A model generated the notes under the pieces. It was given only the letters and a program-made list of their open reading frames with translations. It was not told the DNA's origin and searched no databases. The position numbers were made by a program, and so were the translations under genes. 64,000 nucleotides of DNA, from contig NZ_LR134287.1 of NCBI RefSeq assembly GCF_900636515.1, positions 1,922,001 to 1,986,000 of the forward strand, in the 5' to 3' direction. The first letter of the stretch is position 1. Every line of letters begins with the position of its first letter. The DNA is from Neisseria animalis (GTDB taxonomy: Bacteria; Pseudomonadota; Gammaproteobacteria; Burkholderiales; Neisseriaceae). Below, piece after piece: positions 658 through 1,563 of this stretch.

Positions 658-1219
658 TTTCGGCGCAACCCTGCAATTCGGTATTGTGGCGGCGGTGGAC
701 GAAGCCGGCCACAACCTGCGCGTGCGCCTACCCGCCTTGGAAGACATGGAAACCGACTGGCTGCCGATGATTACCTTTGCGGCGGGCGGCAATCAATTTT
801 ACAGCCTGCCCGACGAGGGCGAGCAGGTGGTGTGCCTCTTGGACGCACAGGGAGAGAGCGGCGCGGTGCTGGGTGCGACCTACAACGCCGCCGACAAACC
901 GCCCGCCGCGAGCAAAGATATGTGGGTGCGCCGGTTTAAAAACGGCACGGTCATCGAACATGACCGCAAAACGGGTGATGTGCGGGTCAAGACTTCGGGC
1001 GTGGTTACGATTGATGCCGATGCGGTGGTGGAAAAAACGCTGACGGTAAACGGTCTGCTCACTTATACCGCAGGCATGAGCGGTTCGGGCGGCGGCGGAG
1101 CTTCGGCCATGATTGACGGTGCGGTTCATGCGACGGGCGACATTACGTCCGGCGGCATCAGCCTGCCCAACCACACCCATCCGGGCGATTCGGGCGGTAC
1201 CACCGGCAAACCTCAATAA
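635..1219 (+). CDS. Phage baseplate assembly protein V (Mu gp45 / P2 gpV-like)
   Basis: A 194-residue protein starting at the ATG inside the end of the preceding gene. It has the gpV layout: an N-terminal OB-fold-like domain (about residues 10-95, with LRVRLPALED and LPDEGEQVVCLLD), then a repetitive beta-rich region, a Gly-rich stretch (SGSGGGG) and the terminal NHTHPGDSGG. The HxH pair is the metal-binding signature of gpV spike tips, which bind iron at the apex of the membrane-piercing needle. Length is close to Mu gp45 and P2 gpV (about 200). Its stop codon abuts the A-run that forms the U-tract of a minus-strand terminator, so the late operon is interrupted immediately after this gene. 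Confidence 0.88.
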   Translation: MKQQTTHDFGATLQFGIVAAVDEAGHNLRVRLPALEDMETDWLPMITFAAGGNQFYSLPDEGEQVVCLLDAQGESGAVLGATYNAADKPPAASKDMWVRRFKNGTVIEHDRKTGDVRVKTSGVVTIDADAVVEKTLTVNGLLTYTAGMSGSGGGGASAMIDGAVHATGDITSGGISLPNHTHPGDSGGTTGKPQ

Positions 1220-1224
1220 AAAAA

Positions 1225-1246
1225 CCGCCCGCATGGGTGCGGGCGG
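1225..1246 (-). terminator. Intrinsic terminator of the minus-strand small-ORF unit
   Basis: A perfect 9-bp GC-rich stem with a 4-nt loop (arms 1225-1233 and 1238-1246). On the minus strand it is followed at once by seven U (A-run at 1218-1224). That orientation suits a transcript coming from the small ORF at 1270-1374, not the phage late transcript. Confidence 0.75.
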
Positions 1247-1269
1247 AAAACAGATGTTTTTTTATGCGG

Positions 1270-1374
1270 TTATTGACTGAAATACAGGATTAGGGCTAAT
1301 ATTGCTTTCAAGGCATCAGCCTTAACCGTGATTTTCAGAACAAACCGCTTTGACCGTAGGTAGATCTGAATCAC
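1270..1374 (-). CDS. Candidate 34-residue hydrophobic-tailed peptide (phage moron)
   Basis: A GTG-started ORF of 34 codons antisense to the prophage late operon. It is preceded by an excellent Shine-Dalgarno (AAAGGAGGTGA, 8 nt from GTG). The peptide starts MIQIYLRSKRF, with alternating polar and hydrophobic residues, and ends in a helix-like hydrophobic tail (ALILYFSQ). It has its own promoter-like hexamers upstream and a U7 terminator downstream, so it reads as a complete independent unit between gpV and gpW. Both the ribosome site and the start codon fall inside a nested hairpin, as in many type I toxin mRNAs. I do not recognise the family; toxin, superinfection or lysis-modulating roles are possible and unproven. 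The alternative is a non-coding RNA with a chance ORF. Confidence 0.45.
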   Translation of the reverse strand: MIQIYLRSKRFVLKITVKADALKAILALILYFSQ

Positions 1375-1403
1375 ATATCTCACCTCCTTTAAGGGGTGTG
1401 ATT
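1369..1403 (-). promoter_or_regulatory. Nested hairpin sequestering SD and start codon of the small ORF
   Basis: On the minus-strand RNA a 7-bp perfect outer stem (1397-1403 with 1369-1375) encloses an inner stem (1391-1398 with 1381-1389, one bulge). The inner stem contains the GGAGG ribosome site and the outer 3' arm contains the GUG start. Such occlusion would keep translation low until the RNA is processed or refolded. Inner and outer stems share two bases, so they may alternate rather than form together. Confidence 0.5.
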
Positions 1404-1411
1404 TGCAAACC

Positions 1412-1438
1412 AGCCCCGACGGCCATCGGGGCTTTTTT
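1412..1438 (+). terminator. Intrinsic terminator, rightward
   Basis: An 8-bp GC-rich stem (1412-1419 with 1426-1433) followed by six T on the plus strand. It would stop late transcripts that read past gpV, or act as a stable 5' hairpin in the opposing minus-strand RNA. Confidence 0.6.
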
Positions 1439-1452
1439 GCAACCCCGTACGG

Positions 1453-1482
1453 ATTATCATACAAACAGATAGAACCACGCAA
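1453..1482 (-). promoter_or_regulatory. Candidate promoter of the small-ORF unit
   Basis: On the minus strand TTGCGT (1482-1477) and GATAAT (1458-1453) are separated by 18 bp, a fair sigma-70 match. Transcription would begin near 1447, giving a 5' UTR of about 70 nt before the GTG. Confidence 0.35.
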
Positions 1483-1524
1483 TCTTTAAAGCCGTTTAAA
1501 AGCCTTTCAGACGGCATTTTGCCA

Positions 1525-1560
1525 AAATCCCTGCAACCGATTATTCAGTTGCAGGGATTT
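1525..1560. terminator. 13-bp perfect hairpin ending 3 bases before the gpW start
   Basis: Arms 1525-1537 and 1548-1560 pair perfectly around a 10-nt loop and run into a T-rich tract directly upstream of the gpW ATG at 1564. It resembles a terminator but leaves no room for a normal ribosome site for gpW. It may instead be a translational or processing element. Confidence 0.5.
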
Positions 1561-1563
1561 TTT

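Follow-up and report, generated by a model that had tools for sequence, protein, structure and literature searches.

In the Hok/Sok system a short hydrophobic peptide of plasmids or phages is under RNA control, the Shine-Dalgarno sequence (SD) lies in a stem-loop, and post-segregational killing results. The RNAs of the par locus of pAD1 are convergent. Fst/par on this Enterococcus plasmid is described as having a hydrophobic short peptide, an SD within a stem-loop, RNA control and post-segregational killing (PMC8309996). AapA/IsoA of Helicobacter pylori is described as having a 30-residue peptide, a cis-encoded antisense RNA whose -10 element lies inside the toxin ORF, an SD masked by anti-SD hairpins, and several copies per chromosome (PMC6733600).

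The locus studied here lies in a Mu-like prophage of Neisseria animalis, within the 64,000 nucleotides that were analysed as a whole (the window); the host genome is a single contig of 2.24 Mb. It resembles AapA/IsoA in its short peptide, an antisense RNA predicted to start within the ORF, an SD in a hairpin and its multiple copies, and it resembles Fst/par and Hok/Sok in combining a short hydrophobic peptide on a plasmid or phage with an SD in a stem-loop. Unlike AapA/IsoA, the locus has its whole antisense promoter at the very end of the ORF, its toxin leader hairpin doubles as the antisense terminator, and it is carried by phages and plasmids; unlike that of par, its antisense RNA would be fully overlapping. 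A profile search of PDB sequences, the comparison by which relatedness to AapA was assessed, gave no match, and the family peptides found no Fst or Hok toxin in Pfam or the PDB. We consider it probable that the locus represents a moron-borne type I toxin-antitoxin module, belonging to a new family of addiction cassettes of mobile elements. The module architecture is well supported by sequence analysis; from it we infer transcription, duplex decay, toxicity and addiction.

An earlier note on this DNA had described a complete minus-strand micro-gene, and every part of it was recovered between positions 1482 and 1218 of the minus strand (Table 1). The terminator of the predicted toxin mRNA starts directly after the stop codon of the upstream late gene. 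Because the same layout recurs in 45 other copies, the module represents more than a chance arrangement.

Table 1. Coordinates of the predicted module parts in the window
Feature	Coordinates	Strand	Basis or remark
-35-like TTGCGT, toxin mRNA	1477..1482	-	Read from sequence; 3/6 consensus; weak
-10 GATAAT, toxin mRNA	1453..1458	-	18 nt from TTGCGT
Predicted toxin mRNA, ~229 nt	1218..1446	-	Ends inferred from -10 and terminator
GC-rich 5' leader hairpin of mRNA; same bases form the antisense terminator	1412..1433	-	Sequence
Anti-SD arm CACACCCC	1393..1400	-	Folding and SD/anti-SD swap analysis
Shine-Dalgarno AAAGGAGGTGA, 11 bases, partly sequestered by anti-SD arm	1380..1390	-	Sequence and folding
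Peptide ORF, GTG start, 34 codons plus stop, VIQIYLRSKRFVLKITVKADALKAILALILYFSQ	1270..1374	-	ORF 1374-1273, stop 1272-1270
Antisense RNA -35 TTGACT, within Ser-Gln codons	1273..1278	+	Consensus scan and codon test
Antisense RNA -10 TAATAT, within Ile-Leu codons	1297..1302	+	Consensus scan and codon test
Predicted antisense RNA (antitoxin), ~132 nt; spans start codon, SD, anti-SD and leader hairpin	1309..1440	+	Ends inferred
Intrinsic terminator of antisense RNA	1412..1438	+	Terminator scan
Intrinsic terminator of toxin mRNA, 9-bp stem (1246-1225) then U7	1218..1246	-	Terminator scan
Whole module, ~266-bp insert at spike-wedge junction; right edge approximate	1220..1485	.	Junction gap comparison

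A search of the 46 genomes of the genus with the window peptide returned its own locus and one weak match, in G020 (55%, E 0.68). A DNA search of 83 Neisseriaceae genomes gave leads in G009, G015 and G017, where the same layout was found on reading, and a five-peptide profile then gave 27 matching places (E ≤ 1e-3), spread over 15 of the 83 genomes. Wider profiles and inspection raised this number to 21 of 83, distributed over 3 of 12 genera. Seven further IMG/VR viral contigs carrying the family came from a DNA-pattern scan, which also returned the window's own phage as an IMG/VR contig (not counted) and records of N. weixii and Bergeriella denitrificans that are the same copies as those of G042 and G009 (not recounted). 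When 72,556 plasmid records were searched by tblastn with the peptide of a relative, all four matches were from Neisseria: pJS-B, two other 7.2-kb plasmids of N. meningitidis, and pNL3.2 of N. lactamica. In neither pJS-B nor pNL3.2 does the annotation show a gene at the matching position; for pJS-B it includes a Zot-domain protein, a major capsid protein and a replication initiation factor.

From the 39 members collected, removal of 5 identical ones left 34 distinct copies, and 12 places found later brought the total to 46 across Neisseriaceae genomes, IMG/VR viral contigs and Neisseria plasmids. This count is exclusive of weak matches (E > 0.005) in G002, G028, G056-G058, G062, G069, G071, G077, G079, G082 and G154. 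Matches in G006, G018 and G026 were dropped, such a leader and antisense promoter being absent from the stretch inspected, as was a weak match in G067 after inspection. Beyond the family, 399 genomes of the order gave matches only in their Neisseriaceae, plus one marginal match in G154, and 369 genomes of the class gave the window's own genome alone. Searches by tblastn found nothing in phages or plasmids with the window peptide and nothing in phages with the relative's peptide; the first DNA search in phages yielded only two short matches to Streptococcus satellite phages, in the terminator stretch. The consensus peptide is M(K/Q)ITLRxGKLLLTVxIDxRxILALIMLFSQ, and that of a third subgroup resembles MKxTTxxGRSWLRLRTVVKIILALFLLLVN. 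Copies are tandem or grouped in G009, G032, G045 and G054, and G020 contains three identical ones.

The sense promoter proposed in the earlier note, TTGCGT-N18-GATAAT, is present as a sequence, but its -35 element is poor (three of six consensus positions), and a consensus scan of positions 1150-1600 did not report it. Across the copies of types I and III, a -10-like hexamer precedes the GGGG at which the leader starts in 21 of 24, and in 17 of those 21 it is an exact TATAAT placed 6 nt before the GGGG; in the window this pattern search matched another register. The -35 boxes of these copies are mostly poor, and inspection by eye identified no clear sense promoter in type II copies.

Folding of the predicted 229-nt mRNA gave -92.5 kcal/mol compared with -60.5 ± 4.4 kcal/mol for dinucleotide shuffles (z -7.2), none of 200 of which reached the native value. 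Burial of both SD and start codon in a nested hairpin, as had been claimed, is seen in the minimum free energy fold of the window, but across the ensemble the probability that the SD pairs locally with upstream bases is only about one half (0.53). When 33 copies were folded at full length, 16 of 22 type II copies had a mean probability of 0.77-1.0 that the SD pairs within the preceding 30 nt; the other six (G010, G015b, G019b, G020b, G032c and G032d) fell below 0.6, and the 11 type I copies ranged from 0 to 0.66. The translation start of the primary mRNA is thus predicted to be masked, in the window partially.

When SD and anti-SD sequences were swapped among 29 distinct copies, each copy's own pairing was stronger (-7.84 kcal/mol) than swapped pairings (-6.32 ± 0.29 kcal/mol), a value reached in 0 of 20,000 permutations overall, 38 of 20,000 within type I and 13 of 20,000 within type II, statistics that ignore relatedness and include one copy (G009c) with a misplaced SD. 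By this comparison the putative SD mask changes in step between copies. On MAFFT leader alignments, the covariation bonus computed by RNAalifold was close to nil (+0.25 and -0.12 kcal/mol). A long-distance interaction between the 5' and 3' ends of the mRNA is only suggested: many type II copies have possible pairings such as GGUGGG/CCCACG, GGCGGG/CCCGCC and GGCAGG/CCUGCC, the swap test was weak (285 of 20,000 permutations, 16 distinct copies), and the pairing is missing or poor in G015b, G032b, G032d and G019b. An SD-like AAAGG with a two-codon ORF was seen ~80-130 nt upstream of the ORF at five loci (L045, L048, L055, L060 and L079); such ORFs (ATG-NNN-stop) ahead of type II copies include ATGACTTAG, ATGATTTGA and ATGACATAG.

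On the opposite strand of the last codons, the window contains a σ70-like promoter, TTGACT-N18-TAATAT (+ strand, 1273-1302), which was the single promoter-like site reported by the consensus scan of 1150-1600, where 0.6 sites were expected by chance, a rate at which a lone site could arise by chance. The pattern TTGAC[TC]-N17-19-TANNAT lies opposite the ORF tail in 44 of 46 copies (34/34 distinct and 10/12 later ones), its -10 boxes falling short of the full consensus. Among the 34 copies the spacer is 18 nt in 32, 17 nt in one and 19 nt in one. Two degenerate later copies, G007b and G007c, have spacers of 25 and 12; their broken spacing together with a broken ORF was not taken as evidence, because one indel can cause both.

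Codon usage under the promoter was examined in the 25 copies that could be aligned in frame (27 less G015a and G039b), a set that omits eight of the 34, seven of them viral contigs or plasmids found by DNA pattern or tblastn, and includes three (G009a, G009b and G017) first found by DNA similarity. The leucine codon at the -10 element is TTA or CTA in 25 of 25, compared with 26 of 140 other leucine codons of the same peptides (Fisher 1e-15) and 9% of leucine codons in the window. The serine codon is AGT in all 23 copies that have serine (background 8%), and the remaining two have glycine GGT. Synonymous resampling of 24 copies gave a mean motif probability of 0.005 per copy; in 13 representatives at ≤70% identity the motif was found in 13, against 0.05 expected. 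Since the copies are related, these p-values overstate independence. Across much of the third subgroup the reading frame over AGTCAA is a different one, which places it within Leu-Val-Asn, and the spacer is 17; in G039b the frame is shifted and AGTCAA retained. Its persistence despite a changed reading frame argues that the antisense element is held as DNA, and the putative antisense promoter is accordingly conserved at the DNA level.

Read on the opposite strand, the 5' leader hairpin of the mRNA is followed in the window by a T run and forms an intrinsic terminator; a weaker + strand hairpin lies at 1384-1396. With permissive criteria (a hairpin and four or more T in eight), an antisense terminator-like hairpin was detected in 34 of 34 copies, with a poor T run in G032a, G017, G081a and G015a and, in G043, G004, V73 and V74, a best-scoring hairpin that differs from the obvious one. 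The sequence predicts an antisense RNA of ~130 nt over the ribosome site, with a fold z of -5.0 relative to shuffles. At the sequence level, a putative antisense gene with its own promoter and terminator therefore overlaps the predicted toxin mRNA. The likeness to type I toxin mRNAs that had been noticed before was borne out and extends further, since the antisense promoter and terminator, missed earlier, make a sense/antisense pair.

The peptide ORF is short and hydrophobic and is conserved as protein. Outside the antisense promoter (codons 2-20), pN/pS was 0.43 when 209 pairs drawn from 28 sequences were summed and 0.49 for 14 disjoint pairs, with 62, 42 and 88 substitutions at the three codon positions in the latter; the calculation omits the window copy (insertion) and G009a, G009c, G015a, G017 and G039b, where gaps were needed or the ORF is broken. 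Because synonymous sites approach saturation, the real ratio probably lies below these values, and by this measure the predicted ORF family is under purifying selection. Across 29 copies, mean hydropathy is 2.6 for the tail and 1.2 overall, and net charge runs from 0 to +5. In AlphaFold2 models, both the window peptide, modelled alone, and an N. weixii relative, modelled with eight others, have two strands, likely a hairpin, and then a C-terminal helix (pLDDT 82 and 80; pTM 0.33 and 0.31, a low fold confidence); the predicted tail helix of 11-15 residues is short for a membrane span. Scans of Pfam, NCBIfam, PHROGs, PADLOC, the PDB and Rfam, with the third subgroup represented by G009c only, gave nothing above chance, and no family of NCBIfam, PADLOC or the PDB was matched by sequence. 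For the libraries searched, the statement that no described peptide has this sequence holds. Matches to Pfam Flu_B_NS1 (3 of 15 members, best E 0.01) and phrog_28076 (1 of 15 members, E 0.15) were taken as chance.

A conserved hydrophobic tail and carriage on phages and plasmids would also suit a small membrane protein that is not toxic but is subject to antisense control, such as a membrane-altering or phage-excluding factor, and purifying selection fits any function. We regard this reading as unlikely. The ORF, read without any repair of the sequence, is broken or altered in 9 of 46 copies, by in-frame stops (G009a, G024), an insertion (G017), loss of the stop codon (G032b, G032d), or frameshift or truncation (G039b, G007b, G007c, G043b), and copies also occur in tandem arrays; every copy with an intact ORF has the antisense promoter, to which the SD mask is added. 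Decayed copies, tandem arrays, an antisense promoter and a masked SD are typical of self-harming peptides. At L050 and L062, insertions that resemble Correia elements disrupt one copy and stand in place of the 3' end in two more.

The flanking late genes match PHROGs for baseplate assembly or spike and for baseplate wedge, and the wedge gene was found at 17 loci in 13 of 46 genomes. The spike-wedge gap is 72-81 nt at 14 of the 17, compared with 344 nt in the window, which makes the module an insert of ~266 bp at a cargo site; the moron layout proposed earlier is upheld in that the module has its own promoter (the sense one weak) and terminator and is extra relative to related phages. Two further gaps are long, 733 nt (L120) and 730 nt (L130). 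That of L120 contains other sequence, with a small protein that looks secreted and a second ORF about 100 residues long, and the last 330 nt of that of L130, the part read, contain the end of an ORF resembling that in L120; neither locus yielded a copy in the peptide searches. Long gaps with other content indicate that the spike-wedge site takes up cargo. The other 16 of the 17 spike-wedge (gpV-gpW-like) loci are without the module, among them two more Mu-like wedge loci of the same genome (G000, at 1082152 and 1242182, with identical match scores). At most Neisseria Mu-like junctions examined (window 1535-1563, L116-L131), a terminator-like hairpin, T run included, stops directly at the wedge-gene ATG, without an obvious SD.

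The position of the antisense terminator on the late-gene strand would suit a reading in which RNA is the product, with the antisense RNA (same strand as the late genes) or its terminator tuning late-gene transcription at this junction and the ORF incidental. That explanation is improbable given purifying selection on the peptide family, the 16 related junctions without the module, and the setting of the other copies, whose scanned neighbours are not late tail genes. Thirty of 66 neighbouring ORFs were scanned in Pfam. The ten at type II loci comprised seven Zot proteins, one of TraG/TraD type, one UvrD helicase and one without a match; the ten at type I loci included BRO-N twice, TraG, Fic, a Zeta-like protein, housekeeping genes and one without a match; ten more, eight of them at third-subgroup loci, included AntA twice, primase/Toprim, DUF533, housekeeping genes and one without a match. 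Among these 30, the distribution lends no support to the roles suggested earlier in late-gene antisense regulation or superinfection exclusion. Matches to sRNA-Xcc1 (RF02221) were observed near BRO-N or AntA ORFs and the micro-gene (L057 1837-1924, L099 2634-2719), and a CRISPR array with RF01344 repeats is situated no more than about 250 bp from one copy, G019b (L066 31-858 and about 1028-1117).

That the ORF is a spurious one in a structured junction, as the many short ORFs of the window might suggest, is very improbable in view of 46 copies, a pN/pS below 0.5 and a conserved SD/start layout. Membership of the PtaRNA1 (RF01811) type I system, which likewise places an RNA over the leader hairpin and SD of a small ORF, has next to no probability, the antisense strand (+ strand, 1370-1438) matching at only 17.4 bits (E 0.6) against a gathering score of 47 bits that none of 83 Neisseriaceae genomes reached, and the PtaRNA1 at two of the three loci over the cut-off (L133 and L134) lying opposite the start of an unrelated ORF of ~76 codons. 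Rfam matches at the gathering score were confined to two tRNAs in the window and, at 13 loci of relatives, to CRISPR repeats and sRNA-Xcc1, none on the module; of 23 matches below that score in the window, those other than PtaRNA1, AgvB, Hrs13 and Betaproteobacteria_toxic_sRNA among them, mostly lie on terminators and were taken as chance. In the open literature searched (including passages of PMC7272453, PMC4148029, PMC4423775 and PMC8309996) and apart from reviews that mention both subjects, such as PMC3874152 and PMC5086665, no type I toxin-antitoxin system of Neisseria was found.

A toxin-antitoxin module of this kind would work as follows. The minus-strand mRNA would encode the short peptide, whose hydrophobic C-terminal helix probably harms the cell's own inner membrane, and would be poorly translatable as made, its SD being masked by a local hairpin. 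The antisense RNA, probably constitutive, would start inside the ORF tail and stop at the leader hairpin; its span takes in the start codon, SD, anti-SD and leader, so that pairing with the mRNA would shut off the ribosome site, block translation and mark the duplex for decay. Upon loss of the element the antisense RNA would decay first, the stable mRNA would remain and peptide would be made, so that the host keeps the element.

A broader proposal, to which we give roughly equal weight for and against, is that a lineage-specific superfamily of such addiction cassettes, with the antitoxin promoter overprinted on the toxin, stabilises the filamentous phages, plasmids and Mu-like prophages of Neisseriaceae, N. 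meningitidis episomes among them. AGTCAA would serve as a -35 box and encode Ser-Gln in one branch and part of Leu-Val-Asn in another, which would make toxin and antitoxin nearly inseparable by mutation, a compact example of coding sequence overprinted with a promoter and of a reading-frame change around a fixed DNA element. The family is an unannotated candidate type I toxin-antitoxin system, often multicopy, in Neisseria genomes, viral contigs and small plasmids, and it could explain the persistence of pJS-B, pNL3.2 and filamentous prophages.
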